A stretch of DNA of 64,000 nt from Symbiodinium natans (Eukaryota > Sar > Dinophyceae > Suessiales > Symbiodiniaceae). The stretch spans positions 62,001-126,000 of the forward strand of contig CAJNDS010000199.1 of NCBI GenBank assembly GCA_905221605.1, in the 5' to 3' direction. Under the pieces are notes generated by a model. The model was not told the DNA's origin, ran no database searches, and saw only the letters and a program-made list of their open reading frames with translations. Position 1 is the stretch's first letter. Each line of letters opens with the position of its first letter. Both the position numbers and the translations under genes were made by a program. Of this stretch, positions 19,739 through 48,169 are shown piece after piece.

Positions 19739-22230
19739 CCAGGTCGCGTGGTCCACTAGGAAGGAAGACAGTGCTGGACCGATTCGACGCGGCCACGTTT
19801 CGGAGAGTCTCGAAGTACCTCACAATCTCAAGGCCAGCCGCTAGCCATCCCTCCAAATTCACCGAAAGCAGTCCAAGCTGTGCTTTGTCAAGTTGCTGTG
19901 TAATCAGCATGAGATCAGAGATCTCCTCAATCGACAGAGTCTCACCCGACCCATGTGTGATCGATTCCTAAGCTTCTTCACCATCAAGAGCTGACGGCAA
20001 ACATTCATTGAAATGCTATGATCGAAGTCAGCAACAAGAGGCATCGTCAAGCAACAAAGCATAGCTTCTTGCAGCTCGCATGCTCTCAACCCGTCGATGA
20101 TGGCTCGACGCTGTCGTGCAATGCCTTCACCCTGCAAGCATCACATTGGCCTAGAAGCGACGATGTTCCCTCCGCAGTGTAATTTGTTCGCGGGTATTCC
20201 ACACAGCTCTGAACTATTTTTGGATAGCCGTTTCCGGATTGCACCCATCTCGCTTGGAATACGACATGCCAGCAGCACCATGCGAAACGGCAACTTCATT
20301 TACACCTGATGTGACTGCGGTGAAGTGTGCCTGCAGCTGTGCGGCATCGGCCGCTGCTTCAGCAGCCTTGACTAGCTTGATCTTCTCGGCCTGATGCAGG
20401 GCTGGATTCCAACCAAATCACAGTTCGATGTTGCTTCAGTGGTGCAAGGGCTAGTGGCTATTGTGTTGGTGGAGCCTCAGCAGCCATGTGGGTAGCATCC
20501 CGCAAGCCTAGGTCACACTGGCGGCTACAGATGCTTCGAGGCGTCTTGCAACATCCACTCTTTCCGAGGCGCGCTTTTGCTTGTTGATCTCCTTATCAAG
20601 TAATTGAAAGTGAAGCCCCCTGACCATAACGAGAAAATGTGCCAACATGTCGAGGCCAGCGCGTTCATGGACGCCACGACTTCCGAATGCGGCATCACCT
20701 GCTGAGACATGCCCTCAATTCGCATATGCATGGACAGATTGGCTCCGGCCTCTGTTACTAAAGCCTTGGTGATGGAAAAGCCGAAATTGATCATCTCCTG
20801 AAGTCTCGATGCACCGAGGCAATGAACGCACGTAACAACAACATGAAGTAAAGTCCTGTACAAGCTTCTTCTGCACGGCATCGGAGACGTCCTCCTCTTG
20901 CAGGAGTACGAGCAGAAAATCATGATTCCTATTTCCCTCCACCGTAAGAGCTAACCCTAAACCCCCAAGTAAGACCGAAGACCCCAACTTGTCTAAACAT
21001 TGCCAGCCCGACCTTCTTCTCGAAAGCCTCGTCCAGTGTCATCTGCGGGACGTGCGAGCGCACCACGTCCTTGTCAGAGCAAAAAGTTTCCAAACCTATC
21101 AGCCGCGTTCACCCTGATGCTACTGGTACTACCTACGGTTAAGCCAAGCAGCGGCAACATAAGACTCGACTTGCACATTCACATTGTCCAATTTGTACAT
21201 CGCCTCAGTGCATTGTCTTTCTCTGCTGGGCAGCAGTTTCAATGGAGTGGTCGGAAGCTCTTCGGACAGGCTGCAAGCTCTGTGTATTCGGGCATCACCG
21301 CCTGCTGCACGGCAACCTTCACATGGACGAAGACATCGTCCTGGTCCGAAGACATACCACATGGGAAGCATGGAGCCATAGTGTTGGGGGATGTTGGGGG
21401 CGATGCTGACCAAAAAGTCGTATTGCAGGGCGAGGCCTCGCACCGCAGGAGCTCCAAGAAGCTCAGGTATCCACCGCCTCTTGCTCCTCCAGCCCCGGCC
21501 TTTTGCGTGACCCCCCTCTTGTTTTCTGTTCTTTTCTTTTTGCGTCTGGAATCGGACCGTATGCCAGGACCCAGGAGCAGGGGGCAGTTCGGGTCGAGCA
21601 TAGGGAACGTGCCAACGATCGGTTTCCGCATGTTTCCGCCATACAGATTATCTACGTCGGCTGCTTTCAACATGTGCACCTTGCCAGCTTGTGAGGCTCC
21701 TCTTGGGCAAAGGCGACCCCCGGCCGAGGCGTTTCGCGTAGCTTTGAAACAGCTGATGGTCACTGATGGTCCTTGGTCTTTGTGGATACCGTCACGAAGT
21801 GCTGCTCAGTTCTGGCCGTGATAGAACGCAACCCGACGCAGAGTCCTTACAGAGATGGTGAAGATTAATTAAGTTAGCCCATGGACAGTCGCTGGCAGGA
21901 AACAACCCTCAAGTATAATGAATGCCTTGAAACCTAAGCTCCCATCAAGCCCCAGCCCTCCTTTCGACCTGAAACTCTTCGTGCGCATGTCAGGTAAAGA
22001 CCTCTTAGGGTCAGGAGCATGTTGCAAGAACCCACGACTAGGTTTCAAGCCCGGCATGAATCTGGCAGAAACCTTCATCACAACCCATGCAGCCTGCTGA
22101 GTGGTGCTCTATTACCTTAAGAACGCGCTTCTTGCCTGGCACAAGCTTCCGCAGCAGTCCAGACCAACTGCTGCTAAACCTGGCTCCAAGATGTGCGAAA
22201 AGCCCCCGAACTTTTCGACGGCAAAGTAAC
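19739..22230 (-). CDS. SPFH/Band-7 protein, plant HIR-type
   Basis: Hypersensitive-induced-reaction-like member of the stomatin/prohibitin (SPFH) family, which scaffolds membrane microdomains. Exons in order: 22180-22230 (EKFGGFSHILEPG), 21772-21804 (ends STKTK), 21275-21340 (DDVFVHVKVAVQQAV), 21153-21203 (AMYKLDNVNVQVESYVA), 21013-21069 (DVVRSHVPQMTLDEAFEKK), 20856-20894, 20750-20797 (FGFSITKALVTE), 20663-20698, about 20559-20591 (EINKQKRASER), 20331-20390 (AEKIKLVKAAEAAAD), 20084-20131 (GEGIARQRRAIIDGLR), 19897-19967 and 19739-19818 (YFETLRNVAASNRSSTVF). Joined, they follow HIR proteins almost residue for residue in length. Resolved donors: seven GC, two GA, one GT. The 22.2-21.8 kb join, the 20559 end and the last residues are unresolved. 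Confidence 0.87.
20798..20855 (-). other. GA-AG intron, 58 nt, in SPFH gene
   Basis: Exon ends ...GTACAG and the intron begins GACTTT. It ends ACTTCAG before GAGATG. A GT donor six bases earlier would delete two residues. With the GA donor the spacing between AVQKKL and GFSI equals that of HIR proteins. Phase 0. Confidence 0.75.
21341..21771 (-). other. GA-AG intron, 431 nt, in SPFH gene
   Basis: Exon ends ACCAAG, intron begins GACCAT and ends GGACCAG before GACGATG. Splicing restores the family motif TKTKDxVFV exactly, in phase 0. Confidence 0.8.
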
Positions 22231-23235
22231 CTCGACACCAGCGAGGCCTACCATTTACTCTCCCCACATGAATGCTCACGGAACTTCTGAGTAAGCAGGC
22301 CTTAAACACGACGTGCTATGAGAACACCAACATACACCAACTAAGCGACATGCCCAAAGACTGACTCAAATGCCACGTATGCCACGCAATGCCACGTATC
22401 ATGCAGCCTATCCGATGTAAAGCATCTTGACTTTGAGCGCAGCAGGGCTGGAAGCACTCGTCTGAACTTTGTCAAGGCACGGTCCTGCGGAACCGTCACC
22501 AAGCAGTTTGTGCCGGGCAGACACCCCCTGGCCAGGGGCACAGGACATGCACACCCCAAAGAACCCAAATGTCCAGAGTCACAGAGAATCACGGCTGGCC
22601 TTTCCACCCTGTGCATAGCATGCTTCCCTCTCACCGACTCTTCTTCGGAGTCATGAGATGGACATGCCTTCTACGCGGTGCTGAGGCACGGCGACATGAT
22701 GCGAAATGCAGAGCGAGCAAACATCCAGCGCAGAGTAGGCAGGACTCATGACGGAGGTCATCAACACCTTCGATGAAAAATGCATGCTTTGCAGTCCTTT
22801 TTGCAAGGCTTCTGAGCATGCACTCTATGGTGAAACAAGCTCGAGATTTATGGGATGCTCTACGAAACTCATTCATGAATCTCAAGCATCTACGTTATGC
22901 GAATCTGGAGACGCCGCTGTCTAGTCATTTTCGCGAACCGTTCAGCTTGAAGATTTCGTTCTGCCTTGCAAGGCATTGTGCTGAGAGTCGCTAACTGCCT
23001 TTGGACACGGTGAGACGGCTCGGCAGCCTCTGCCTGCACGCCTGTGTCTTCTCAGACATCGAGCTCAGATTGCGGAAGCAAGACAGCGTATGTTAACCGA
23101 AACTTGGCTTGCAAGCCCTCATCGGCAAAATCTCGATGCGGCATTTTGTGAAACACCAAAGGATCCTTCACTGGTTTTCCTTGGACCGAGAAGTCTCATG
23201 CAAGAACTCTCGCCTGCTATGAACCTGGAACCTGC
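22231..23235. other. intergenic, no firm gene
   Basis: Promoter or 5' region of the SPFH gene and 3' flank of the calmodulin-like gene. Nothing else recognised. Confidence 0.4.
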
Positions 23236-24851
23236 TCACCTTTCCAGATCTAGGCCTACCTGCCGCAAGCCCCGGCCCCATGCCAAGGATTGCCAAGGCT
23301 CGATAATCTTTCGCACAAATTCTCCATATTCGCACTCGCCGCCTAGGAGCAGAACAAGGGGATGCGTCGGGACAAGGATGTAAAGTGACTGGCTCTTCAT
23401 CCAGTACGATGGCAAAGCGCTCGAGCGAAACGGGGGCCCTGTAATCTTTGTGATCCGAGTAGCTGTTGTCATCGTCAGCAGCTTGGATCATTTCCTCCGC
23501 CCTGAGTCATCATGCCAGATTGGCCAAGACAGATACATGCGTGGGCTGACGGCACTTTCCGCTTCGCCTTTCGATTAGCTAAACACCCCTCCAAAATGCA
23601 TTAGGGCATGCTCCGAGAAACACAAGATTCTGTGACAGAGTCGATCACCCCCGCCCGGATAAGTAAGTCAACCCAGGCAGCGCACCGTCAGGTGCGCTAC
23701 CCTGTGCAGGAACCCCTGTCACTGCCAAACTGAGCCCTGGCCATCATGCCCTCCCTTTGCGCATACTGCGCAGGTTCATTGCCATGAGGAATCTGTTGCC
23801 GTTCTATGGACAGCTTAGAAGTGCCGTCCGTCTACAATGACACCATACATGCCAACCCATCTTGAAAGATCTGCAACCTTGCACTTGTGAAATGGCCCCA
23901 CCGAGAGACGTGACTCAGACGCGTGAGGCTTCGCTAGGGATCAGCATCGACGTGGAGTCATCAGCTGAGTGCCCAGCTGCAGCGGGTTGACCTTCACACA
24001 GCCAAATGCTGCCAACAGAACATTTCGCAACCTGAAACCTGCAATGCAGTCCCCGTGCAATCCGAGTCCTTTTTCGCTTCGCTTGCCTCTCACAGAAGGG
24101 CACCCTCTCTTTTGCATTTAGTAGGGCCTCGAAGCCGAGCTTGACGAGCACGTCCTGCAGCTCGATGGCATCGATCGTTCCGCTCTTGTCCTCGCAAGCT
24201 GAAGTGTTTTTATTACTGTTGCTACTATGACGATTGCTATTCTTACGATGGCGATTGTTACTATTATTATTATTATTATTACTATTACTATATTACAGCA
24301 CAAACAGGGGACGCGCCGGCAAAAGCTTCACTTCAAGCAGGTGGGAGACGAATAGGAGACGTGATTTGCACACCCAACGCCCACGAACGAAGTGCAGCAA
24401 ATCACCATCCCAACCTAACAGAGCTGATTCTTCTGGCTAGGTCGTGTCCTTGTCAAAGATTTTGAACGCGTTCACCAGCTCATCTTCAGTGATCATCGAC
24501 CTATCAAACCTCAGATACACTTGCCGAAGGAGACCACATGAAAACACTGATCGTATGCTTTCAATGCATGGCCACTCAAAGGCCAGCCCTTCATTTTCAG
24601 CTTGGCGAACATGTTCACCGGATCAGGACATGCTGACATGCGAGGCGGCGCACTTGGCCATCAGCTTCACGAAGCCTGAGCAAAGAGGCTACACTCAAGA
24701 GCATCTCAAGAGCTCCTGAAAGGTATTGAAAGGTATGCACCAGAGAATCACAAAAAGACCCAAAAAGACCCCAAACCGCGCTGGTCCAACAGAGCGAAGC
24801 ACGCTGGAAGTCCAGGATCCCCTTGCCGTGGCTATCGATGTCATTCATGAC
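23236..24851 (-). CDS. calmodulin-like EF-hand protein (partial)
   Basis: Calcium-binding sensor of the calmodulin superfamily, presumably cytosolic. Exons: 24803-24851 ([11 protein letters not shown]), 24642-24675 ([10 protein letters not shown]; alternative end 24630), 24449-24500 ([15 protein letters not shown]), 24104-24190 ([15 protein letters not shown]), 23464-23494 ([10 protein letters not shown]), 23260-23342 ([13 protein letters not shown]), with a read-through stop at 23236. Joined, loop 3 is the textbook [12 protein letters not shown] and loop 4 is DDDNSGECEYGE. Loop 2 ([12 protein letters not shown]) lacks the acid at position 12 and has His at 3, so it probably binds weakly or not at all. 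Introns: 24676-24802 GT-AG, 24501-24641 GC-AG (or 24501-24629 GT-AG), 24191-24448 GA-AG, 23495-24103 GT-AG, 23343-23463 GC-AG. EF-hand 1 and the start codon lie upstream, perhaps at 27.0 kb. Confidence 0.87.
24191..24448 (-). other. GA-AG intron, 258 nt, inside an EF-hand loop
   Basis: Exon ends GACAAG, intron begins GACACG and ends TTGCGAG before GACAAGAGC. Splicing rebuilds [14 protein letters not shown], a perfect EF-hand, in phase 0. The intron carries a TAT-rich microsatellite at 24254-24295. Confidence 0.88.
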
Positions 24852-25134
24852 CTCGACTCAGAAAAAACAGCGACCGCCATGTAGCCAGGTGAGCGCACAG
24901 CTCTCTATTCGAGTCTGGCCGAATCAAACTGCATGTGTCTAGATGATGGCTCTGTAAAGATTTAGGAGGACACCATCTGACACCAGCGCTGCTGTCGAGA
25001 TTGATGGGCAAGGAAGTTGCAGATATTTCCAATGCTGCTCAGAAGCTTGCAGGAACCTGGGCAAGCAAGCTAGCATCAGCCCTTGCATCCCCCAGGATTC
25101 CTCTCCCCAATCTGCCAGGCTCAAACGCGCATGC
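24852..25134. other. upstream flank or intron of the calmodulin-like gene
   Basis: No exon for EF-hand 1 could be recognised here. Confidence 0.35.
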
Positions 25135-25252
25135 GATATGGGTAGTTCTCTACGTTGGGGTTCCTTTTTGGGTGCTAAACATAGTACGGCACCCGAGGGC
25201 ACCCGTAAACGATGGATCCCACAAGGGGACCCTTTAGAGAACTACCCATATC
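25135..25252. mobile_element. hairpin MITE-like element
   Basis: An 18-bp perfect terminal inverted repeat: 25135-25152 reads GATATGGGTAGTTCTCTA and 25235-25252 is its exact reverse complement. The 82-bp interior has no open frame. I see no obvious target-site duplication. A related AGTTCTCTAC occurs near 25324. It could be a non-autonomous DNA transposon or a stable hairpin of another origin. Confidence 0.6.
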
Positions 25253-25906
25253 CAATCAGCTTGGGCGCTGCCGGTCCGTGGGCTCTTCTCCAAGCCAGGC
25301 CAGCGCGGAGCGGATCTGACAGCAGTTCTCTACATTTGGTCATGGGAAGTTTTTCGGGCGCAGCCGTTTAGGCAACTAAGACCCAGAGTCTTGCGCAGAT
25401 GCCTGCATGGCATCTATTTTACCGTCCTGACAGGCGAGCTCAGGCTGAGGCATACCCTCGCGGCTTCACTCAGAACCTACCAGAAAAGGTCAAGCGCTGC
25501 AAAGTCAGTCCCCGAGCACATCGTAGAGGCGGAAGGCCCAGCAGAAATCCCTAAGCTCGGAGTCCCGAAAGCCACACCTCCGGCATCAGGGTAGCTGTCC
25601 GACTTCGATCTACTGTGTACAGTCCCGCTTGGTAGCCCCCAAGCTGCCTTGGCTACAGCAGACTAGTTAGCGGCTAGCGAAAAACCTGCCTGTCAGCGAG
25701 GAGGTATGACTCCGGGATTCCATCCACTCTTATCCGCTCTTCTTGCTCTTCGCCTCGCTTACCAGTGCACGGTGTATCTCAAAACATTCAATACGGGGGC
25801 TGCCCCCTCTGCTCTCGTTGCCAAGGAGCTCATGCTGGGCCGGAAGCTTCACACTTGCGGCAAGGTAGCGTCTGAGCCGAAAGAGGATGTGGAGGATGTG
25901 GCACAC

Positions 25907-26170
25907 CAGCCGGGCTGTTCCGGCTGTTCGGGCAAGCTCACGGCAGATTGCAGCAAACGATTTGCAAGCCAACAAGTCCCCTATCCAATTGTGGAGATTT
26001 GCAAGCGCGACATTGACCACGGTGTCCCAACACTCAACACTACTGCCAACTCTTCCCTCAAGGCTTTCAGACAGGCCACGCTGCATCTCAATCCCCACAG
26101 CCAACGGCAGTGCTTTCATCCTCCCTTCACCTGCCCCTCGCCCTTCGTGCGCAAATTTTTCACATGCTGC
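25907..26170 (-). CDS. exon of an unknown helical protein
   Basis: Acceptor GTGGCTTCAG precedes 26170. The frame then stays open past 25730. It contains AACEKFAHEGRGAGEGRM, EMQRGLSESLEGRVGS and LANLHNWIGDLLACKS. A GTGTGC donor at 25906 is one plausible end. The Leu/Ala-rich pattern suggests helices, and I cannot assign a family. It lies between the EF-hand-like exon at 27.0 kb and the calmodulin-like exons, so it may be a separate gene or an inserted exon of a larger one. Confidence 0.45.
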
Positions 26171-26499
26171 CTGAAGCCACGACCACAGGTGGTTTGAGGG
26201 CGTTGCATGGGGATAATTTCAAGGCGATTCCCCCGAGTTCCGAGGCCCAAGCTTCCAGGAGCTTCGAGCCTTTGAGGCCCTGCCGCCCGGGCTCCGCTGC
26301 CAGGCCTCCACCGCCGCAAAATCAAGCACAAAGTTCCGGACAGCCAAAGTGGGAGAAGAACAGCATGTTCAGTAACACCCGCAAACATGAGTTGGGAGCC
26401 AGACAGCCTCCTAAACACGTGTGTTCTCCACTGCTTTTAGAACAGAAGAACTGCATGTTTAGGAGGCTCTCTGCAGCGGCTGGTGCTTTAAGCCCCCTT

Positions 26500-26680
26500 C
26501 ACCTCTAAGCCCCCTGAGCCCCTGTAGCACTGAACCCTAACAGGCCAAAGCCCCTCAAGCTGCGAAGCAGTGAACCTTCACCCTCAAGCTGAAAGCCAAC
26601 CCTGGCATTCAAGGTTTCAACCCTCAACGGCCTTCTACCCTAAACCCTAAACCCTAACCCCCTCGAGCCCTCACTCCTGC
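26500..26680. repeat. degenerate CCCTAAA-type tract
   Basis: Scattered variants of CCTAAACCCTAA and CCCTCAAGC with a short perfect run at about 26639-26660. Telomere-like but not a true telomere. Confidence 0.6.
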
Positions 26681-26987
26681 ATAACCCGGCCGACGTCCCA
26701 CCCTGGGCCCATGATGCCAATGGTTTAAGGCCTCCTAGAACCCTGCATGTGGTGCCCCCAAGGCCTTCCGGCACGGCCTCTGTCTCCTCGTGCATCTGCA
26801 AGGGAACCGAGGACCTGCACGAACAATCCTCTGAGGTCCTTTGAGAGTTATCTGAGTTTTGGATATAATTTGTCGTCAACAGGACTCAAGGACCCCCCTG
26901 AATTGGCCCTCACATTCGTCCGACAGCATCCTGTGGAATCCTAAAGCGAACCCAGATCCATGCCCATGTTCGATGTCATTTCGTCAC

Positions 26988-27046
26988 CCCTCGCGCTTCT
27001 CCAGGATCTTCAACACCTGGTCCACAGAGACCTTGTTCTTTGCCTC
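26988..27046 (-). CDS. possible EF-hand-type exon
   Basis: Acceptor GACATCCCAG, then 19 codons (KVSVDQVLKILEKRE at the end) to a GTGACG donor, phase 2. If the first loop residues come from an earlier exon, the sequence aligns as positions 3-12 of an EF loop with N at 6 and V at 8, but Q at 12. The exon would then split its loop at the same place as the 24.19-kb exon of the calmodulin-like gene. It could encode EF-hand 1 of that gene, across an intron of about 2 kb, or be unrelated. Confidence 0.4.
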
Positions 27047-27099
27047 CTGGGATGTCAGCTCAAACGAACCCGCTTCACAGTAACCACCCTCATTGTCAC

Positions 27100-27900
27100 T
27101 GCCCGTGTGGCAACAATCCTGCCCCAACTTGCTCCACATGTTCCGCAGCCGCCAGGTGAGGTTCTCAACCTTGGCAGCGAGCCGCATGTGGCTATTTCGC
27201 CATCTCAACTAGAACTGGTGACAAAAAGATTTCGACGAGGACCTTTTGATAGATCACCTGCTTCACCTGCCACAGGCTCCTCCCTGTCATTGCAGGTATG
27301 GGCCAACTGTCTAAGACGACAACGTGACACTTGGTGCGGCAGTTGTTCCACCTTTGATTGCAATGGGCATGTCGAGAAACTGCTACTAGGCACTACGCTC
27401 AGGCTTACGACACATCAAGACACATCAATCAGTGTGGGCTCTGCCTTGGCAGCGGACGCCAGCGATAAAGAAACATTGTTAAACTTGCCCCCGCATCGGC
27501 CGACACACACGCAGTTGTAAACAATCGAGATCAACGAAACATGTAATTCGGGATAAGTATGGCTCGTGGTCTCATTAGACCAACGAGTTCCACGGAGCTG
27601 CAACCAGTCGGTTCACTGGTCGACAGGCTTGCGTGCTCCCCTACACGACACAGCCCAAAGTATCGACAAAATCAACTATTGTAGTTGTCGTTGTTATGAT
27701 GTAGCCGCTCTACATGCATGCTGCTCTCTGGCTCTCGAGGCATTATGGATGAGCAGTCATTCCGTCATGTCCCGACCTGCAACCGGTGGTGCCATAATCA
27801 GGAACGGACAGGGAAGCCGGTGCCAATTTGAAGCTCATGGTGTCATCGTAGTCGATGGCCAGGCATCCGAGCAGTAGCCAATGGCCTGCAGCTTGGCTTG
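27100..27900. other. no firm exon
   Basis: Short open frames only. This is probably the 3' flank or terminal exons of the gene upstream at 27.9-30.5 kb. Confidence 0.3.
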
Positions 27901-27939
27901 CAGAACTATTGCACAAGCAGCAAACTGGCGGATTGGATC

Positions 27940-30500
27940 CCTTCTGACACGCCTGGATGATGGAGGCCACAAAGATCGACATGCTGCCGACGACATCCGC
28001 CACATTGGCTCCACACAGTGCCTCTCGCTTGCCTGCTCAATGGCTCTGCAGAAGGCTCTCTGCAAGTACTGCAGCCACAAGGCGACCCTCCCCACCTCGC
28101 GCAGGACAGTCCACAAAGCAGAACGACATCATCTGCGCAGTGTACGCAAAGGAGCCAATGACATAAAGGATGTCCACAGCGCATTCCTTGAATAATCTGA
28201 TAGATCCAGCGAGCCCGATGTAAGGGTACGATGGTTGCAAGTTACTACCGTTAATTACTGTTCCTTGGGTCCCAAGTCGTGACATGTGGTCCGGTCCGCT
28301 TCAGACCTTCAGAACAACCTCGAGTTTGCCATCTGGGTTCATGTGGAATCAAGAAGCACTGGATCATAAGGCTGTCAACCACTGATTTTGAAAGAGCTTA
28401 ATCAGACTAGAAGATCGGGTCCCTAGTCGCGCAGTGCACTTCAGTTCTGAACGCCGTGACCTACTGGTGGAGAGAAATCTAGTGCCGCCTGTAGCACAAA
28501 AGTGGGCCTCTCCTGGCTTCGGGCCAATGTTAACCAGGGGTGCACAGTAGCGGGCTCAAAAGCACAGTTGATGATGTTGAAAACGGGGTGCAAGATTTCC
28601 TCCGCCCACCGCATCTGTGCATACCAAATTATGGATGAAACTGTGTTCTCGATCGTACTTGCTGGCACCTCTTACCAGAGGTGTCAACTCATGCCAGCTA
28701 GGAGCTCAACACATCTGCTACTGCCTACACGAGCAACTGCCGCAAGAGCTGCTTTCCGATCACCACAAGTGCGGGCAGCATCATTGATGGACAGGAAAGC
28801 GCGTATCAACCATGCCACCGCATCCACGGCATTGAAGACACAGTTGGCGATCGCAAAGCCACGCTCAGTTCCCGCCCTTGTGAGGCGCGAAATATTTCGA
28901 ATGGTCTCAATGGTGTCGTCGTCAGTGACGCCCAGTACCCGCGGATCTATTCCAGCAGTCTTTGCTTCAAAGAGGACGTTGGGCAAGGCGGCGTGATGCT
29001 CGTCTGGGCGCTTGCTGCTTCTGCTCTGCAGCCATCTCCGCACTTCAGCCGACTTGTTCCGATACAACTCAATGTTTTTGTCGTTGGGGGCATCTGGCGT
29101 GGACGTGCGCGCTTCAAGCAGGCCTCAGAGAGCCAAGGCAAGGAGTGGAGGTGACCAGTGATATCCAGTGACCGTTTCAGCCAAAGCAAAACAAAGGTCC
29201 GTAACAACCACCAAAAAGTTAGCTGAGCTAGCTGCAAACCAACAAAACCCACCAAGAAGACACTCTGGGCGGGACACGTCGCTCCTCTGGGGGGAAGGGC
29301 TGGCCCAGTGAATAGATCTTCTCCAGGATTGGCGGTATCTTTCTCCTTTTCTGAAACACCCGGCTGTCCATCAACGGCCTGCAGAGAGTTTCAAGGTAGG
29401 ATACTAGAATGTGGCCACGATACGTTACAGAATGCTCTGGCATGCTATCAACACAGGGACCATAAGCCGACCTGGCCCGACCTGGCCACTGAGCGCCCTG
29501 GGTCCCCTGAGTCTGAGCCCACGGCTTCGTGAGAAAGCAATCCTCCTTGAAGCCAAAGATGGTCGAGCCCGCGGCCGCGAGGTCGCGAAGCCTTGTTTCA
29601 AATTGGGGGAATTCGAGGGGGATGCATTGGCTTTGTAGAACTCAGAACCAGACCTCCATTCAGCCGAGACACGTGGCAGCCACACATGCGCTTGCAGGAG
29701 AGAGTGACTCCGCACAGGATCCGGCAGCACTGGCCAGGAAGGAGCCCACCCAGGTCAATTCCTTTTAGGGGTTTTATTGGGGTTCCTGTTAAGCGTTTCG
29801 GAGATGCTTTCGGGCAACGGCAAGCGTGGGTTCGGTCCTGAACCCCTAGGTGAACTGGTGCCATATTATCGGGTGCCGCATGCTGCATGCTGCCAGGACG
29901 TGCTGTGACATGCCTTTTGCCACCAAGTCACCGTAACGGCGTAGGCGACAGGCTCAGTACATCCCAGGGGCTCAGCGTCAGGACAAATCGCTGCCCGATA
30001 GATATTAACGATAGCATTCCCCAGATATGCAGAAGCTTGCACTGTATCGATGACGCAAGTGGTCGTCACCACCTGGGGAGTAGAACATCATTTCCAAACA
30101 ACTGCAATGAAATTCAATGAAGGCTCCTCTTAGCTTCAGTCCACAACGGCAAAGAAAAAAGTTTCCGCACCTTCGCTTCTTCGGGATGCGTGCTGTAGGG
30201 CACACCCACGTCGTCAAACAGGGACACATCGAAGAGCCTGCGCTCCAACAACATTTCAAAGGCGTCTTCCGAGGAGCTCGTGCTGCCGGGAAAAGGTACC
30301 TGGCCCCGGAGGGAATAGAGGGAGATGGTGCCCAGAATTCCCAGGCAAAGAGCTACACCGACGACTGTCGAGATCTTTGAGATCTTCCTCGTCCCAGCAT
30401 AGACAAGCCAGGGTGAAGGGACTGCCTCAACATCGAAACCTGAATCCTCAAAGCCGCGCTGGAGCAGACTGCTCCCATCCTCTGCAGTCTGGTAAGCCAT
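27940..30500 (-). CDS. membrane protein with repeated cysteine-bounded helical modules
   Basis: Exon 1 (30171-30500, 110 codons) starts with ATG and has one transmembrane helix (STVVGVALCLGILGTISL) after about 43 mainly polar residues. GT-AG intron 30073-30170 (98 nt) leads to exon 29932-30072. Further exons: ending 28729 (GTAGGC), 28096-28186, and from 28032 on, joined by a 63-nt GT-AG intron in matching phase. Four exons carry a module of Cys, about 22-26 mostly hydrophobic residues, Cys: CVIDTVQASAYLGN..C, CVFNAVDAVAWLIR..C, CAVDILYVIGSFAY..C and CGANVADVVGSMSI..C. I recall similar repeated modules in uncharacterised dinoflagellate proteins, but I cannot name a function. Exons between 29.9 and 28.9 kb and the 3' end are unresolved. 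Confidence 0.62.
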
Positions 30501-30613
30501 GAGCCCCCCACAGAGCCAGCTGGCGGGAACTGTTTGTCACAACAAGCGACATCATAAAGGAAGCATGTCAAACGAAACTGCGCCGATGATGAAGCCTCTA
30601 GCTGCCCGCGATT

Positions 30614-31136
30614 CTACACTTTTCTACACTTGGCATCTGAGCACTTGTCCCGGGCCATGTGCCAATCGCCACCGCGCTCCGTCCTCCTCGGTGACAGGCT
30701 TGTGACATGTTCAGTCCAATGATAACTGATTCCACCCTCTAGAAATTCCACTAGCGCGCGCCTCTGGGAATTCGTGTGCCGATCTGCTCTCCCGGAGAGA
30801 GGCTCTAGAAAGTACACATAAGTGCTCCCAGCAATGTCAACCAGAGGGACAAAGGCCCCAAAGCCTGGAGCTTTCATTGATTATCTGCCACACTACCTGA
30901 GATGACCCCAGATGCAGAAAAGGCGCATGTGTGTTGAAAGCATCCACAGCTGTTGCGGGTCAATATTCTCCTCCGAAGCAGCTGCCGGATGAATAACCGG
31001 AGAGACTCCGCGATTGCACGGGATTGGCTGCCCAAGCACAGTCCTCATCCTCCACCATGCGCAACAGCTCGCCCATCGAGTACTGCGCCCCTGCCTGGCA
31101 AAAACTTGCATCCATGGCATTGCGTGAACAAAGCTG
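30614..31136 (-). CDS. two terminal exons of an unknown protein
   Basis: Exon 30960-31136 follows acceptor GATTCTTACCAG and reads QLCSRNAMDASFCQAGA... with MGELLRMVEDEDCAWAAN. It reaches a stop at 30960 if unspliced. Exon 30614-30870 follows an AATGAAAG acceptor, contains GFGAFVPLVDIAGSTYVYF and RRALVEFLEGGISYHW, and ends with a TAG at 30614-30616, only 110 bases before the ATG of the next gene. If both belong to one transcript, the first must splice before its stop. No family recognised. Confidence 0.5.
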
Positions 31137-31169
31137 CTGGTAAGAATCACGAATAACAGCACTCAGCAT

Positions 31170-38575: not shown

Positions 38576-38587
38576 AGTGCAAAAGAG

Positions 38588-38728
38588 AGAGGAGAGAGAG
38601 CGAGAGCGAGAGCGAGAGCGAGAGCGAGAGCGAGAGCGAGAGCGAGAGCGAGAGCGAGAGCGAGAGCGAGAGCGAGAGCGAGAGCGAGAGCGAGAGCGAG
38701 AGCGAGAGAGAGAGAGAGAGAGAGAGAG
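38588..38728. repeat. (GAGAGC)n hexanucleotide array
   Basis: About eighteen copies of AGAGCG/GAGAGC flanked on both sides by shorter GA runs. Confidence 0.97.
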
Positions 38729-38880
38729 TGGAAGGCTTGGCCCCAGGCAGACCGCGTCGAGGATGGCCGCACAGGGCTCATTGGGCTCGCCCCTCCTGAT
38801 ACGGTGTTCAGGACTTCGTATCAACACATCTGCGCATATTGATATATCTAAGTATGTATATGTGTTAAATGCATATGTAT

Positions 38881-38911
38881 ATTAATTAATTATATATATA
38901 TATATATATAG
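38881..38911. repeat. (TA)n microsatellite
   Basis: TTAATTAATTA followed by a TA run. Confidence 0.9.
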
Positions 38912-38999
38912 TATCCCCCCCCCAAAGATCTACCGTTTTACCACCTTTTTCAACAATGAAACAAAATCCGTCTGCCTCAGAATGAAACTTGACAATGAA

Positions 39000-39445
39000 A
39001 CAAAATCCGTCTGCCTCCTGCCTCGAATTAAATTCCCCCGCAATCTTACCGAGACATCTTGGAATCTCACATCTCGCACCCCGGCCGATTGAATTGAATC
39101 GGAAACGATTGAATTCAATCGGCCGGGATTCAAGATCGAAGATCCAAGATTCCCCAACACTCTTGCCTAGTCATCTTGGAACCTCAAATCTTGGTCCCGG
39201 CCGATCGAATCCAATCTGAAACGATTGAATTCAATAGGCCGGGATCCAAGATCCAACATTCAACATTCAAGATTTCCCAGGACTCTTGCCGAGTCATCTT
39301 GGAACCTCAAATCTTGGATCCCGGCCAATTGAATTCAATCGGAAGCGATTGAATTCCATCGGCCGGGATCCAAGATCCAAGACTTGAGATTCCAAGATGA
39401 CTGGATGACTAGGCAAGAGTCCTGGGAAATCTTGAATCTTGGATC
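39000..39445. repeat. palindromic tandem repeat, about 120 bp unit
   Basis: Three direct copies of a unit made of CCGGCCGATTGAAT-type palindromes, AAACGATTGAATTCAATCGG, GGGATCCAAGATC and CTCTTGCC(T/G)AGTCATCTTGG. The last part (about 39380-39445) repeats the AAGATGACT..GGCAAGAGTC block in inverted orientation. Confidence 0.85.
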
Positions 39446-39532
39446 TTCGCGCTTCTCGTTGGGGTTTCACCTCGTGTAATTGAAACCGACGAACAAGAAC
39501 TACCAAGCTGCAAGAGACAACCGCACGCCTAC

Positions 39533-39870
39533 CAAGCCTCGATTCACAGCAGCGATGTCGTCAACTGCTTTGATGATGAACGGGCAGCTGATCTTGTCGC
39601 CCAAGTCCGGAAAGTCCTCATGCCATCTATTTGCCAGCCAGCAACAATTCCCCTCACACTTGTACCTCCAACGCTGACCGCCTGCCGGAGCAAGCTAACT
39701 TTCCTCGGCGACGCCAGCTACTCATGTTCATTGCGCATGTATGCTTTAACGTGACGCAATCCTCGGAGCCGAGGAAAGCGTCGGCAGCGGCTAGGCCGCG
39801 CGTCGGCTCGGCGACAACTTCGAAGTGGAATGCCGCTTTCTTCAGGAAGCTCTTGTGTTTCTTGACCTTT
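39533..39870 (-). CDS. two exons of an unknown protein
   Basis: Exon 39722-39870 follows acceptor GCTGTCTTCTGCAG and encodes 49 codons (KVKKHKSFLKKAAFHFEVV, RGLAAADAFLGSEDC) with strongly G/C-biased third positions, ending at donor GTAGCT. Exon 39533-39616 follows ATGGCATGAG and encodes 28 codons (DFPDLGDKISCPFIIKAVDD) to donor GTAGGC. Their phases do not meet directly, so a small exon or another donor is missing between them. Both look real. No family recognised. Confidence 0.55.
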
Positions 39871-40640
39871 CTGCAGAAGACAGCGCCCCAACGAAACAAA
39901 ATCCAGGAGCACTATTCCGCAACTACTGCTAGGATTGTTTCGGTCATGGTTCAAAGGGTACTGCAGCAGTACCTCAAGCACGACCCTCATGCTAAGAAGA
40001 TACCCCACTCACAAGGTCGAACACGAGAGTCCTCTCCAAACATGAGCCTGAGCTTCCGGAACCACCACGTACTTGTCGTTGTCAGGAAACATGTCCTGCA
40101 AACAAACAGTCATGTGCGACTGCACAACCGCACAACAAGGCAATAAAGATTGAATGGGCGCGGGCGCTTTCAACACCGATTACAGACGCACTGACGCCAA
40201 ATAGCCCAAGTCCTGCAACACCGGCCCGGAGGTGAACTCGCTCGCGGTGGCTCGGGTCTGCGAAACTCAGCGACTGAACCGTTGGCACCACAAGTCCTCC
40301 ACACACTACCCTCACAAGGCCTTGGACACCACGCTCACCGGAAGAGACGCAAACTCGGCACAACGGCCATGCCGACGAAGGCTACAGAGAAGAATTCAAG
40401 CAGGCTGGTTCGAGCAATACAGCTCGACGAAAGAGTGCGTGTGCTGCGATGTCACTCGACTTCGAGAAAGCTAGAAGACTCTGAATCACAGCTTGTTATG
40501 GCTAAGAAGAAGCCAGGAGAGACACCAAATCCCGGCCGCACGAAAATGCTTTAAGATGCCAGGGAAACCCTTCAAGCTCCGAAGATACAAAGAACTCAAC
40601 CGACAAACAAAGGCAGAGCAACTCGAACACCAACAACACA
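39871..40640. other. no firm exon
   Basis: Nothing supportable seen. Confidence 0.3.
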
Positions 40641-40649
40641 CGGACATCT

Positions 40650-41410
40650 ACCCTATCGGGTTAGCCCTATAGGGTTTAACGCTATGGGGGTTAAAGATTT
40701 AGAGGTTAAAGTTCAGGGCATTGCAAAACGTAACCCTAAACCCTGGGGTTAGGGTTTAGGTTTTAGGGTCCCAAACCCTCCATTTAGGGTTTAGGGTCCC
40801 AAACCCTCTACCTAAACCCTCCATTTGGGGTTTAGGCTCCCAGACCCTCTACCCAAACCCTAGGAGGGCATCTGGAAAGAGGACATCTGGAAAGAGGGCA
40901 TCTGGGAGGGAGAAGGGCATCAAAAAGCCGACCAAACAAAAGCCGACCAAACAAAAGGCGACAAAACCAAAAAAAGGCGACCAAACCAAAGAAAAGAGTA
41001 ATAGGTTTGCAACCTAGAGCTGTTCATAATCAGACTCCTCTAATGCTCTAGGCGCCACCTTCGCTGGCGAACCCTAAACCACGAGCTTTACAGAGTTTAG
41101 AAGGGTTTTTGGAAGGGTTAAGAACAGTTTGAGAAGGTTTTGTTGAGGGCCTAGAAGTGTTTAGAAGGTTTAGAAAGGTTTAGAAAGGGGTTTAGCAGGG
41201 TTTGGATCTGGGTTTAGAAGGGTTTTCGCAGGGTTTGAAGCTGAAAGGAGCTGAGGAGCCAACTGCCAAAAGAGCCCAAAAGGAGGAAAACAAAGGCAAA
41301 AGAAAAACCCGCTCAAAACTTTCGCTCAAAACTTTTTGGGACCTGAACCTAAACCCTTAAGACCCCCCACATACCCCCCAGATACCCCCCACATACCCTT
41401 TAGAAGAGGA
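40650..41410. repeat. telomere-like and other degenerate short repeats
   Basis: 40650-40865 mixes TTTAGGG-type and CCCTAAA-type words in both orientations. 40920-41000 holds AGCCGACCAAACAAA-like tandem copies. 41095-41230 is rich in GTTTAGAAGGGTTT words. 41360-41400 has CCCCCCACATACC copies. Confidence 0.6.
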
Positions 41411-41770
41411 AAAAGAGTGCCCCAGATACCCCCACATACCACGTGCGACAGCTCTCTTGACTTTTGAGACGTCGCCCGGGAGTCAACCATATTGAAATCA
41501 TATCTGCCTTCTGTACTGGCAGAGCCCTTGTATCAGCCAACCATATTGAAACCATATCAAAAAAATATTTGGACATGTGCCTGTTGTCTATGCTTTCTAC
41601 ATCACAACACTAAAGTACTAAAGGCAGCCTTAAATGAAAAGTGAAACAAGCCTCAGGCACTCAGGCCTCGTCTTCCGACTCCTCCTGACGCCAGCGTCAA
41701 CGAAGAAAAAAATCAAGCAGTTAAAACAACAACATGTTACCTAAGTCAACCGCGGAGGTCCTCGTCCTCG
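41411..41770. other. no recognisable gene
   Basis: Nothing supportable seen. Confidence 0.35.
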
Positions 41771-41774
41771 TCGC

Positions 41775-42210
41775 TGCCCTCGCCCTTGCCCTTGCCCTTA
41801 CCCTCGTCCTGACGTAGAAATCAAAGAGATGTACACTCACCACTCCAACATGCTCCAACATGCAACCAAATATACAAAACATGTCTATCTACGTATAACC
41901 TAAGTCAACCAAAGAGATTCTCAGCGGCCTTCCAGTTGTGCTTGCCCTTGCCCTTGCCCTTGCCCTTGCCCTTGCCCTTGCCCTTGCCCTTGCCCTTGCC
42001 CTTGCCCTTGCCCTTGCCCTTGCCCTTGATGTTGTTGTTTGCGGTTGGTGATGATCTGAGAACCGCTGCGCAGCCAAGCCTGCAACAATGCCTACCACCG
42101 CCAGGACATGCGTATGTGCCTTGTTCTGTTGCATGTTGCTGTGGTGCGTACACTTGTCTTTTATTCATGCTGTGAGGATAAGGGCAAGGGCAAGGGCAAG
42201 GGCAACGGTC
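41775..42210. repeat. (CTTGCC)n arrays with an inverted partner
   Basis: A short CTTGCC run at about 41779-41805 and a long one at 41941-42027, then the complementary GGCAAG run at about 42178-42204. The two arms could pair across about 150 bases. Confidence 0.85.
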
Positions 42211-42699
42211 GCTGTTGTTCATGCCACCGTTCTTGTTTGTCTGTACTTCTAAGGACTTCCACGGCAATCCCCCCACATGCAGTTCCCCCTGGTTCACGCC
42301 AACGAACACACCCACCCTCCCCAGCCCCTCCCACTCTTCCACCCACTCACCACTTCCAGTCAACACCGATCAACCGGCAGATTATTCCACCCCTTCCGAC
42401 TTGCCACCACGCCCCCACCCCAACGCCGACCTCAACCCCCCCAGCCTCACACTCAACCTCCTTGACCGCCGCAGTGCCCCCACACAAGCCCCCCCCCCCC
42501 CCGCATGCGGAGACGCAACGATGTGTCCACATACCCATGTCGCGAATGCGAACGGTGCCAACAACTCCTGGCTAGAGGCAGTGCCTGGTATGCATTTTGG
42601 TTGTGTTTGACTTGTCTGCTGGTCGCTTGAAAGTCCCTCCCCTCTTCTTCTAAAGGAAAAACAATATCCAGGCAAGACACCTCGTCCCACTCGATCTTT
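42211..42699. other. no recognisable gene; poly-C at 42488-42502
   Basis: Low-complexity C-rich DNA between the hexamer repeat and the reverse transcriptase relic. Confidence 0.35.
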
Positions 42700-43182
42700 A
42701 ACACCGACACCGACCTGCAAGGGCCATAAGCATTCGCGAGCCTCCTCACGTACGGCCTCACAAAGCAGCTTGCCTACAAGACGTCGTAGAACCTCCCCGA
42801 CCGCGATGGGGCGGACCCCTCCGGTTTTTTCAGGCAAAGCGTGCAAGGAAGCACCGGCCAGGAAGGGAGCAACAGAACGAGGCGCCTCGCCCCGTGCAAG
42901 AGTGTGGGAAAGCAGAGCGAGGTGCGCAGCGACCTCATCTGCGCGCGCAGTTTGCAAAGCCTCGCGCAGGTGGTCCGGGCGCAAGCCAGTTGGGCCTGGG
43001 GCCGACGCGCGCTTAATGCCGCGCACAGCGCGAACGACAGCCTGGGCCTCGAACTCAGGAACGGCCGCAGGGCGCGAGGGACCCAACTGGGTAGGATCCC
43101 GCAAAGCAGCTTGTATCCTCGAGTTGTCTAAATGTCTCTGCACTTGGCGGCAGCGAAGTGGGCTCGACCAAGGCGGCACATG
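42700..43182 (-). pseudogene. truncated reverse transcriptase of a non-LTR-type retroelement
   Basis: About 160 codons resemble the start of a retroelement reverse transcriptase: SAPGPTGLRPDHLREAL (motif 0/1), then LPEKTGGVRPIAVGEVLRR (motif 2) and LWPLQVGVGV. The frame then runs into unrelated sequence, so the fingers and palm motifs A-E, including the YxDD catalytic box, are missing. Upstream it abuts a TATATACA microsatellite. This is a dead 5' and 3' fragment. The family (LINE-like versus other) cannot be fixed from this piece. Confidence 0.75.
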
Positions 43183-43213
43183 TAAAAAGGGTATATCTCC
43201 GTGGGGGGAGAAG

Positions 43214-43272
43214 CATATATGTATATATACATATATATATATGTATCTGTATACATATATATATATATACAT
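43214..43272. repeat. (TATATACA) AT-rich microsatellite
   Basis: Imperfect TATATACATA units. Confidence 0.9.
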
Positions 43273-44340
43273 GTATTTACTTATTTATCTTTTATTCATG
43301 TTTTCTATACTACAGATAAGGACCGCAGGACCCTTAAGGGCCTCTATGTCCACGATTCATATGTCAACCGGGGAGATCCGCTACTTCCTCAAGATGTTCA
43401 CTTGGTTTATGAGGAAAACCTCAACCTCTACCTCCTCAATGCTAAATGGGGATGCCCCTATTTCCTTTATAGTTGACTAGCAACACCTATGCTTCCTCTA
43501 TAGCTTCTTTGAAACACCTCTATGTCTCAGTCTCCTTACCTCTCGATTTAACCACCCTTGCTACCAGCATCGTGCATGCCTCCGCCTCCTCACGGCTTCA
43601 CAACAGGAGCTGGAACCGGGGGACGCCAAGCCCCCATTTGGAAACATAATGCTCGCATGTCTCTCGTTCTGTCCAGCTGTGATGCATTTCTCTATTCTTC
43701 TATCATTTCTTATCTGCACGCGGTTGCCTTTCTTATTTATGTATGTCCGTACTTATCCGCTTCTGTGATGAGATATGTCTGTAGTCTTTATATGTTTACT
43801 CATGGCATTCTTCGACCTACTTGCCTCGATATGTCCTGATTTACGAAGTTTTTCTTTATGTTATCTTAGGCCGCGTTAGCTTTCTAGTCATACGTGTACA
43901 TACCGCATGCATGCGCTCCTTTACTTCAGGGTGGGGTTGTTGATGTACTTTTTGAGATTTGTTGCCTCATGTCTATTTTTTCTGTTTCTGCACGAAATTT
44001 TATGCGTTGGTTTATGTCTTGGTTTCTCGGTGTCTGTATTTCGTTCTGTCGCTATTCTGCTTTCGAACCTCTGAATTTCGCTTGTCCTTCTCGTTCGTTC
44101 GATATACTATCTGCATATCTGAAACTGCTTTATCTTTTTCTTTATTGGTCAATTTCTTGATCTTTATCTATACCTCTTCATCCTACTTTCCATTTGTTTA
44201 ACGTTGATCTCTCGCGCGTTTGTTTATGCACGGCGTGCTTTCCTTTATTTTTCCAAGGAATTTCTTTGGTTTTGCCTCCTCGTTCCACCTTCTGCCCTTC
44301 CAGCCGCCTTTGGCCTCGTCGACCTTCGAGCTTTGGCTTG
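43273..44340. other. T-rich island without a gene
   Basis: The plus strand is strongly T/C-rich and A+T-rich compared with the neighbours. Open frames exist but encode only Phe/Leu/Ser-rich strings, as expected from composition. Confidence 0.45.
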
Positions 44341-44663
44341 GTTGTTGAAATGCAGTTCAACAGCTTGCTCAAAATGCTGTTCAAGAGCCAGGCACATGGA
44401 AACACTCGGTCCGCTCCTCGATCATCACGGCTCGCAAAGCTTTGCAACGAGCCCGATCTGCCCCTGCCATGCGCATACGACATTCATGACACCCATCAGG
44501 GTGAGCACTTGAAAACGCAGCATGGGCTTTTGATTGCATGATACGCCTGTGGCACACTCTTGCCCCAAGTTCACAGGAGCGGTCACATGCCATGCTCTTT
44601 GCAGCTTGAAGGCCTCGCCGCCAACCGTGACTGCCTGCAAGGAAGCTTTCCCATGTCTCGGCA

Positions 44664-44852
44664 GTGAAGCAAGGTGAAGCAAGGTGGGCAAGGTGAAGCC
44701 AGGTGAAGCAAGGTGAAGCAAGGTGAAGCAAGGTGAAGCAAGGTGAAGCAAGGTGAAGCAAGGTGAAGCAAGGCGAAGCAAGGTGAAGCAAGGTGAAGCA
44801 AGGTGAAGCAAGGTGAAGCAAGGTGAAGCAAGGTGAAGCAAGGTGAAGCAAG
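44664..44852. repeat. 10-bp tandem array (AGGTGAAGCA)
   Basis: About eighteen head-to-tail copies of AGGTGAAGCA with a few single-base changes near both ends. Confidence 0.97.
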
Positions 44853-45478
44853 CGTTGCAGTCCACTGAGATTCAAAGCGGTCAAAGCGGTCAAACCCAAC
44901 CATGCCAAGTCAAAGGTCAGAGAGCCTGGTAAGCTCAGCTTCTGGTTCGTAGCCATCCCCCAAATGCACCTCGAACACAAAAGCTCAACTTTTTGATGAA
45001 CGTTCCTTTGCACCACAAGCTTGAGGGAAGGCCAACAGAATTCTTTCATGCAACTGCAACCGAGCTGCGAGGTCTTGGAAGGAGTAGCTGACCCGGGGCC
45101 TGGACTTCCACTTCCAAGACGAGCAAGTTCCAACTCACGATTTCGAAAGTAAGGAGTCGTGTTCACACCGCATGTTGTGATATATCGTGATATGTGCTGC
45201 TTTCTGTCGTGTCCCGGTCAGCCATTTTTGTCATCTCGTCTTGCGCACCTGTACATCTCCTGCTGGCGGCCTTTCTGCATATGGCCCTTCAGCTCTTGAG
45301 GTCTGCACAAGCCTCCAACAGCTAACTCAACATAACTTCATATCACAACAAGTACACACGTACGTAGCTACGATTCGCTACTACGTGTTGATCTTTGCTA
45401 TGTTCGCAAAGCACCCAAAATGGGATGCATCTGCGCTGCAATTCAGCGCGAGGGTCTCAATTACTTCCAGCGCAGTGG
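44853..45478. other. 3' flank of the VWA gene, no gene seen
   Basis: Nothing supportable seen. Confidence 0.35.
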
Positions 45479-48169
45479 TTAAAAGAGACGGTTCTGGCAT
45501 TTCGCTTTTTGCACCATGCGGCTCACTTGGGCAGAGGAGATGAGGTCTTCCTTAAGCAGGTTTGTGGATGCGGCCGTGGCCGGAGCGGACACCGGCATGG
45601 GAGGCATAGTGGCAGGCATGGCCGCCCATGGTGCAGGCACAGAGAAAGCCTCACCTCCCCTGCCTCCCCGGCCACGACCTCCCCTCAGGACACCCCCGTA
45701 GCCCGCGGAGCCCGCACCAGGAACACTGGAAACGACCTTACTGAGTTCCTGTTTGACGCTCGCAAGGGATCTTTTCTCGCTTGCGGGGCCCCAGCATACT
45801 CTGTTTGCGTACGCCATGTGCCCGTCTGTCTCCATCTGCACGCTTGTCAGCCCTCCGGCTCGCAGGTTTTCACAGGCCCTCACGGAAGCATCTTCCGCCG
45901 TAATGCTGCGGCCAGCCTCGCGCTCCTGGACTTGAACCTTCAAAACCTCCTCCTCGACCTTCCGCTGCAGCTTGGACAGCGCCAGCTCTTCTGCGCTGCC
46001 GTTGATGATGACGTCTGCAAGCAAGGCAGCCTCTCGAAACACTCAACGAAAGCAACGAGCACCCGTGCAAGCAACGAAAAGACCTGCAAAGTTCAGAGAT
46101 CCCAAAGAGTTTGTACAGGTCTGCACCGTGAGGCTAGGAATCCCAACCTATGGCTAACGAAGACCTCACAAAATCTCGCAACACATCACAACATTTTTTG
46201 CTGCACGGTAACCGAACCCAAGGCCACAGCTTGGCCGCCAGTGATTTCTGCCACTGTACAGAGGAAGTCCCGCGCATGTGCGTAGGCACCCAATGCCGGC
46301 TCGCAACCGACACTGTACCTCTGTGTCAACTCAAGTGCCAACTCCAGCGCCTATTTGCAAAGATCCGAGGGTCACCATATTGCGTCAAACAATGTCAAAC
46401 ACACCAAGGCCGAAATCCAACAGCGTTTCTGTGCAGCTCGGAGCACACGGTGATGCCATGCGCCGCCATGCTGTGGAGGATGTCCAGCGGGTCGCGTCCG
46501 TCAGGGTCGCCGTTTGGGAAGCCGTCGCCGCTCCTATGACCGTGATTTGGAACTGCAACGCTCCACATTCACGGTTTCAAAGAATTTCGAATTGTCACTG
46601 GGCTGCGTTCCTCCTGTGATTGTTTCAGAGTCGCAAAATCTGTGGGGCGAAGGATAATGGCCAGCTTTTCAGAGGCCCGGGCCACGCCTCTCAACCACTG
46701 TCTTGTCAGTTATTGTCCGATTTTTCCTCTGTGACTGCGTGGATTCTGTCGTTGACTCCAAGGTCTGGTCATGCAAGAAAATCACAGTGCAAACCAACGC
46801 TTCTCTAAACCTGCAAGTGAACCTAAAGAAGCATCAAGCAGACGTTGAGGAGGCATGCTGCCGTCGCCGATCGCTGTGCTGCACTACTGCCCAAGCTTTG
46901 CCGCCCCTCACCACTCGCTCGGACTGTTGAATTGATTTCGACCCGCATCAGTTCTTTCAGGAGCCCACCCAAATTGGTTGCCCTCTCGTCCCTCCCCGGT
47001 CTGTCGAAAAAACTTCAGATTTAACAGGCACAGCCTAACACAGAACCGCCAAAGCCAAGACAGCCGAAATGAGCTTCAAGACGCCACGCGTTCAGCAACA
47101 AAACCGTGCACTGCTCAGGTTGCTGCGTTCGTGGTCTGTTAAAACGCTTCGTGCCAAGGCACGGCTCCAGCCCGTGCGGCGGGGCATCAGCAATCAACAC
47201 CTGCATGGCAGGAAGGCCCTCCCACAAACAGGAGTGACGACCCGAATTGAATAGAACCATCCAGCAAAGATGCGCAGATCTTGGTGGAGTTCGGCCGCCA
47301 AGGAAGGTGTAACGCATCGTGCAAGCCTTGACAGCAGGTTTTGGAGGCATGGGCTCCCAGGTCCCACCAGTCTTTGCTTGTCGGATTCAACGGCTCCATG
47401 CATGGGTCCAGCCTGCGGTGACTGCCTCGGGCCCATCGCCACCACCGGCTGCCTTGGTGGGAAATGGCAAGTCTTGGTTGTTCATTCAATGGATTTAGGG
47501 ATCTGGCCGGAAAATGCAAGTAACACACCGTAAGAAAACAGGATGTGCGAAGGTGTCCAGAGATGTACCCAGACCAGTTGCTTTCATAGTCTCAACATAG
47601 TGGGACATCTGGGCCAAATCGGTCGTGAACGGGTAGCACTGCGTAATGTAAGTTCTGTCCTGCACATGTTGCACAGTAGCCTGCAAGCAACTCTCACGGC
47701 TCGCCGGCTGTCGCTCTGACACGCTGCATTTGCCTGCGGCGGATGGTCGCGGTAGCTAATCAAGCCAAACTGAACCTGACAGGTCCAGCGCAGCTCGTTT
47801 TCCCCTTGGTTGTGCGCTTCGAGCAACAGTGACCTAGCGACTTTGCAGTTCTGGCCTTGGCTCCATGTTTTTGCGAGATCTTGCCTACGATGGACTGGAT
47901 GTTGTCCTCATAACATAAGGCTCCAATGATCAAACCTGCTCTCAAGTTCGCACTGCCACTTTTCTGAAACTTTCGAAACTGGGAAGCCGAGTGATCTCAG
48001 GGTTTCTCAGGTCCTGTGCTGCCTTGATGTACTGACCCATGGATCCGGTGCAGTCACCTAAGATGTTCTAAGCTGATGCAGCTAATGTCCCCCTATCCGC
48101 GGTGAAACGCTTGCTTTCACTTCATGAGCTCAGCCCAGCGGCAGATGAAACACAGGTCCAGTTCGGCAT
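45479..48169 (-). CDS. von Willebrand A domain protein with RGG-rich tail
   Basis: Resembles the VWA domain of VwkA-type proteins. Exons: 48143-48169 (ELDLCFI), 48014-48057 (DCTGSMGQYIKAAQ), 47856-47906 (DNIQSIVGKI), 47734-47775 (VQFGLISYRDHPPQ), 47575-47680 (CYPFTTDLAQMSHYVETM), 47413-47448 (GGGDGPEAVTA), 47274-47326 (LHDALHLPWRPNSTKIC), 47163-47200 (VLIADAPPHGLE), 46447-46533 (GDGFPNGDPDGRDPLDIL), 46213-46318 (VGCEPAL, AEITGGQAVALGS), 45479-46030 (LLADVIINGSAEELALSKL, then an Arg-Gly tail and stop). All phases match. The metal-ion site DxTGSM, the later T (PFTTD) and D (GGDGPE) are intact, so divalent-metal ligand binding is expected. Donors: five GC, one GA, four GT. An alpha-kinase domain, as in VwkA, is absent downstream. 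The N terminus is unresolved. Confidence 0.9.
47907..48013 (-). other. GA-AG intron, 107 nt, in VWA gene
   Basis: Exon ends GCACAG, intron begins GACCTG and ends TTATGAG before GACAACATC. Splicing restores YIKAAQDNIQSIV, the expected first helix of the VWA fold, in phase 0. Confidence 0.85.

Follow-up and report, generated by a model that had tools for sequence, protein, structure and literature searches.

GA-AG introns of Symbiodinium natans whose donor matches the start of the next exon: a possible relic of birth by short duplication

GA-AG introns are known from the Symbiodiniaceae. For Symbiodinium natans, Table 2 of PMC10666404 gives GT at 23.6%, GC at 58% and GA at 18.4% of donors, and AGG at 97.1% of acceptors. 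In S. minutum, in vivo use of the junctions of the GA-AG(G) intron in URA3 was shown by a splicing mutant (PMC5818653). Here we consider four candidate GA-AG introns on the minus strand of a 64,000-nucleotide stretch of the S. natans genome (C199:62001-126000, below called the window), each of which has the string AGGA at both ends, together with a sample of introns from the same genome. They share with the published introns the GA donor, the AG acceptor and the exon-initial G. Unlike these shared features, a match between the second base of the donor and that of the next exon was not found stated in the accessible parts of PMC10666404 and PMC5818653. Among the papers listed by literature searches for such a match and for introners in these algae, none states it in its title or in the opening of its abstract.

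Short repeats at intron borders are known in several other systems. In Amphidinium carterae, identical borders of 4-6 bases were described in 2008 beside non-GT-AG borders (PMC2488372). As in the window, a short string is repeated at the two ends of some introns there; however, the genus is a different one, and neither a coupling nor a cause was found stated in the accessible part of that paper. In S. microadriaticum, 4-bp target-site duplications of introners supply the 5' splice site (PMC9860276), and a mechanism of this kind thus exists in a Symbiodinium. On the other hand, those introners occur as families of copies, have inverted repeats at their ends and bring along a 3' splice site; neither copies nor inverted repeats were found for our four introns. 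The introner elements of Amoebophrya are likewise non-canonical dinoflagellate introns with short direct repeats (3-5 nt), but the accessible part of PMC7789003 gives them many donor types and inverted repeats of 8-20 nt, as against 3-4 nt at most in the window introns. Such donors are also known from the copepod Eurytemora affinis, where the points of likeness are about 12% GA or GG donors, an obligate exon AG, canonical U1 and recent intron gain (PMC5714493). The differences are that here a C is found in 15 of the 18 dynein GA introns with an exon AG, and that a match in the 3' exon is not reported in the main text of PMC5714493. Exon starts of the form sag|GY are given in the accessible part of PMC4201569.

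According to the original prediction, all four introns have the form AG|GA...AG|GA and lie between codons. The minus strand indeed reads so; the four are the set in question, in a window whose genes are annotated in part. The intron at 20798..20855 (58 nt, KKLVQ|EMINF) has its 5' copy of AGGA at 20854..20857 and its 3' copy at 20796..20799. For the intron at 21341..21771 (431 nt, STKTK|DDVFV) the copies are at 21770..21773 and 21339..21342. The third, at 24191..24448 (258 nt), interrupts an EF-hand loop (FDK|DKSGTID) and is flanked by copies at 24447..24450 and 24189..24192; the fourth, at 47907..48013 (107 nt, KAAQ|DNIQS), lies in a VWA-like stretch and has its copies at 48012..48015 and 47905..47908. 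All are in phase 0. The maximal direct repeats are CAGGA, AGGAC, AGGACA and AGGAC (5, 5, 6 and 5 nt). Reading through from the upstream frame meets in-frame stops in three of the four introns, and the 58-nt intron shifts the frame.

Homology supports these introns to different degrees. The peptide joined across 24191-24448 matches Pfam EF-hand_6 (E 5.7e-9), and calmodulins align across the join without a gap. The first two introns belong to an SPFH/Band-7-like gene (window 20798-22142), and its peptide, joined across 20798-20855 and a neighbouring intron, has a Band_7 match (E 0.0013) that does not reach the curated cut-off. For the peptide spanning 21341-21771, Pfam had a single match at chance level (E 0.07) and PDB none, and thus this intron rests on a paralog on another contig (C1768:505000-522000), which matches the window gene exon by exon. 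At the site of 21341-21771 the paralog has a 608-nt intron, likewise AG|GAC..AG|GAC. The peptide joined across 47907-48013 matches VWA_4 with E 0.015, under the curated cut-off, and in PDB has only three chance-level matches (E at least 0.27). Three of the four introns are thus supported by homology or by the paralog, and the VWA-like one weakly. Judged by their GA donor, AG|G acceptor and exact join, all four would be spliceosomal introns of the Symbiodiniaceae GA-AG type, with less certainty for the VWA-like one.

For comparison, introns were placed by a purpose-written protein-to-DNA spliced alignment, the boundaries being based on homology within the same genome. The references were the intron-poor dynein heavy chains on C2492 and C158 and a kinesin on C1951, and the targets were other members of these two gene families, which are the scope of the survey. 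From 37 dynein domain matches 30 loci were excised, and 10 dynein contigs were aligned; among the kinesins (98 matches) five loci were aligned. Contigs C2492, C158, C1790, C2282 and the near-identical pair C1572/C2525 were excluded from the counts. After removal of 156 calls with weak flanks, 202 of the 358 intron calls remained, and 159 GT-AG, GC-AG or GA-AG introns were kept; the other 43 had different ends, and 36 of these, from dyneins, looked misaligned on inspection. Of 341 calls in a control run without a bonus for the donor, 196 had good flanks and 162 of these an AG acceptor; removal of 18 non-G and three GG donors left 141 with the three donor types. In the main sample there are 75 GC, 51 GT and 33 GA donors, and exon G follows the acceptor in 152 of the 159 introns. 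This donor usage resembles that of Symbiodiniaceae such as S. natans. The C2492 dynein reference (C2492:206721-216374) is open over 3218 codons and has intron-rich relatives elsewhere; it is perhaps a retrocopy.

In this sample the exon after the intron starts with GA in 27 of 33 cases after GA donors, compared with 17 of 126 after GT or GC donors (odds ratio (OR) 29, p 1.4e-13). The coupling is present in the control run (23/24 vs 17/117), with one intron per homologous site (23/28 vs 16/114) and with strict flanks (15/18 vs 9/78), and it is seen both after an exon AG (19/21 vs 8/53) and elsewhere (8/12 vs 9/73). Where the exon begins with G, the p values for the three phases are 6e-11, 0.013 and 0.0017. 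The pairs of donor +2 and exon +2 in such introns are TT 30, CT 33, AA 27, CC 24, TC 16, CA 12, TA 5, AC 3, CG 2 and AT 0. Kinesins agree with dyneins, as five of the six kinesin GA introns kept show the coupling. The requirement of AGGA at both ends of GA introns was too strict, being satisfied by 19 of the 33, and what holds is the GA-exon match. A real, locus-specific match thus exists, and in the genome sample its final A is not due to chance.

The match is confined to one base. In 133 dynein introns, 69 match at +2 with 43.3 expected, a value reached in none of 2000 shuffles; between -6 and +6 no further position falls under P 0.05 over the whole set. The next highest is +5, with 37 matches where 29.8 are expected (P 0.06); for the GT introns alone, 45 in number, the figures are 15 and 9.7 (P 0.02). 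The 19 introns with AGGA at both ends have no significant match at -5..-3 or +3..+6. An extended target-site duplication in GA introns was considered and rejected, as no significant match is found beyond +2; the clear match is at +2 alone, and for A alone.

Phase 0 was originally taken as a sign of insertion. The phases of GA introns are indeed uneven (21/4/8 in phases 0/1/2), but codon structure explains this bias. In the C2492 dynein coding sequence 64 of the 78 AGGA words are in phase 0 and seven each in phases 1 and 2, and given these frequencies the chance of four out of four introns in phase 0 is about 0.45. Thus phase 0 is uninformative, being the phase of most AGGA words in coding sequence; codon structure, as judged from this one gene, suffices, and phase 0 is rejected as a mark of insertion.

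We give even chances to the possibility that these are ordinary GA-AG introns whose shared A was left over from an origin by short duplication. An AG|GA site would have been duplicated by insertion or staggered repair, the upstream copy becoming the donor. The exon AG would be the signal at the 5' splice site on which a weak GA donor tends to depend, the intron-final AG with the exon G would be the AG|G acceptor of the lineage, and phase 0 would follow from AGGA in coding sequence falling mostly as (K/Q/E)|(D/E). In GT and GC donors the trace may have been lost through C/T interchange at +2; both this exchange and the duplication event are what we infer. Birth by duplication would lead to a base shared by donor and exon, and to avoidance at exon +2 of G, a base unusable, and likewise rare, in the donor. 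Exon +2 is G in two of 152 introns, compared with an expectation of 19 (from AGGN) to 34 (from GN by phase). In phase 1 it is G in one of 27, a low value if judged by the GN rate (P 0.0016), though not by the AGGN rate (P 0.25). In phase 0 the order of bases at exon +2 relative to AGGN availability is T > C > A > G, as expected from donor strength. At reference positions 1262, 1942 and 2296, paralogs have GC or GT in place of GA at the same site, and the exon GA is retained. The lack of intron 20798-20855 in the paralog is also in keeping with this history, as are the S. microadriaticum introners with their 4-bp duplications and the exon AG of the copepod donors. For the GA-AG class, duplication at birth is plausible.

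Several observations weigh against this history. GA introns have no significant excess of matches at bases other than +2. The coupling is present in phase 1 (GA donors 3/4, GT/GC donors 2/23), in which exon +2 takes the third place of a codon and a historical trace should fade. Among GT and GC donors coupling of C and T is absent (OR 1.36, p 0.54), and thus saturated transitions have to be assumed. In the SPFH gene, GA/GA is kept in both paralogs at the site of 21341-21771, despite the lack of blastn similarity between their introns. The recent-looking intron at 21070-21152 has a GC donor ahead of a GA exon. Copies of introns 20798-20855, 21341-21771 and 47907-48013 were not found by a DNA search of the 759 Mb (2543 contigs) that scores the best candidates only and leaves out very common words, two further matches being exons of the C1768 paralog; for intron 24191-24448 the matches listed fall in its trinucleotide-repeat tract. 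Finally, within the first and last 25 nt the four introns have no terminal inverted repeats, the longest pairing being 3-4 nt.

Another explanation is a functional rule, by which a GA donor is spliced, or spliced accurately, only before a GA exon and the match is kept by selection. We consider it possible, if somewhat doubtful. It agrees well with the absence of GA donors before all 63 GT exons, GT and GC donors being freely mixed, with the limitation of the coupling in GA introns to one base, and with its presence in every phase, even where this base is the third of its codon. The persistence of GA/GA in the SPFH paralogs and at apparently one site in four dynein paralogs also fits; at this site, position 550, GA is kept in three dynein paralogs and, on its own reference, in the C96 dynein. 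Among at least 16 U1 matches (11 above the cut-off) and at least 48 U6 matches, the three U1 and two U6 genes inspected carry AAACTTACCTG and ACAGAGA; the U1 5' end is thus canonical in these three, and an A at +2 gains nothing from pairing with it. On the other hand, six of 33 GA donors precede other exons (three of these exons lack even the G and may be wrong calls), as does one of 24 in the control run. To our knowledge, no spliceosomal contact links intron +2 with exon +2. A strict form of the rule, by which a GA donor would work only with a 3' exon that starts with the same two bases, is doubtful, and we know of no such donor-exon matching in other spliceosomal introns. Overall, history outweighs function, being about twice as probable.

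A U1 variant able to pair with GA was also sought, and none was seen among the three inspected genes. A tandem array at C479:101379-129544 has U1 and U6 genes in alternation; identical scores are shared in it by five of the six U1 matches and by all of the U6 matches, also six.

It is unlikely that consensus signals suffice, with a MAG|G donor, an AG|G acceptor and in-frame K/Q/E-D/E codons producing AGGA...AGGA and no duplication. The published frequencies of AGG acceptors and GA donors in S. natans cited above (PMC10666404), as well as the codon origin of phase 0, are in line with it. So is the exon AG, which precedes 74 of the 159 sampled introns (21/33 GA, 41/75 GC and 12/51 GT) and also all four in the window. 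However, this explanation does not account for the coupling of A between donor and exon.

The introns not preceded by an exon AG form a different class. They often have the motif CYYRG (e.g. CTCAG, CTTGG, CCCAG) at exactly +5 or +9, namely 35 of 85, compared with five of 74 introns with an exon AG (p 3.4e-7); at each of the other offsets from +4 to +15 it occurs zero to five times, with 1.7 expected. This split suggests that the exon AG is a splicing signal and not merely half of a duplication. Either CYYRG marks the ends of old introners whose insertion duplicated four or eight bases, or it is a splicing element of fixed position. In the 67 GT and GC dynein introns of this class there are seven runs of at least four matching bases, with 3.4 expected (P 0.045). 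These are weak signs of longer duplications, which would fit the published introners with 4-bp duplications. The matches ahead of the motif are not in significant excess, either in the 15 introns with CYYRG at +5 (11 over +3..+4, 8.7 expected) or in the 25 with CYYRG at +9 (36 over +3..+8, 38.8 expected). At the 3' side, 17 of the 85 introns end in CTGAG or CCGAG.

It is very improbable that the four belong, as copies, to an introner family that was active recently and left target-site duplications. The AGGA repeats speak for such a family, as does the paralog exon that is continuous at the site of 20798-20855, so that the 58-nt intron was either gained in the window gene or lost in the paralog. 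However, one of the two testable sites is common to both genes. Neither the genome search nor the intron ends produced the copies or inverted repeats of a family. Inverted repeats were also looked for at the ends of sampled GA introns: like the four, the 21 GA introns with an exon AG include none with six or more paired bases (1.2 expected). No class of sampled introns has an excess of ends with at least five paired bases, and in introns lacking an exon AG the count for at least six is nine vs 5.8 expected, a weak difference. Some introner families do lack terminal inverted repeats. The introner-like origin first proposed is thus partly supported: duplication is plausible for the class, but for these four neither copies nor inverted repeats were found.

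The two SPFH genes differ in other introns as well. The window gene alone has the intron at 21070..21152 (minus strand), which has a GC donor, no exon AG and CTTGG at +5 and precedes a GA exon; in GCTG CTTGG before GACG just two of four bases match. Two introns are present only in the paralog, the window gene being intronless at these sites: GCAG CTCGG before exon GAAG and GCAT CCCGG before exon GCTT, each with three of four bases matching ahead of CYYRG at +5. They are perhaps 4-bp duplication introners. A part of intron 21341-21771 has a translated match (15 residues, 53%) to a different intron of the paralog. Telomere-like TTTAGGG repeats are abundant in introns and spacers of the C1768 locus and in introns of the C96 and C1971 dyneins.

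Lastly, an artefact of boundary placement by the protein-guided aligner is hardly credible, since, although the boundaries come by homology from diverged paralogs (about half of the aligned residues identical), the coupling is stronger when the donor bonus is removed, holds with stricter flanks, recurs in kinesins and fits the four window introns, which were read without this aligner.

In these algae GA, a donor rare elsewhere, serves about one-fifth of the introns, with canonical U1. The coupling between donor and next exon is a countable signature by which an origin by duplication can be told from a splicing rule; it also helps to explain ambiguous boundaries in gene models. If a matching rule is true, whether it belongs to the machinery or reflects selection for register-neutral cutting, it would let a non-GY donor be tolerated.
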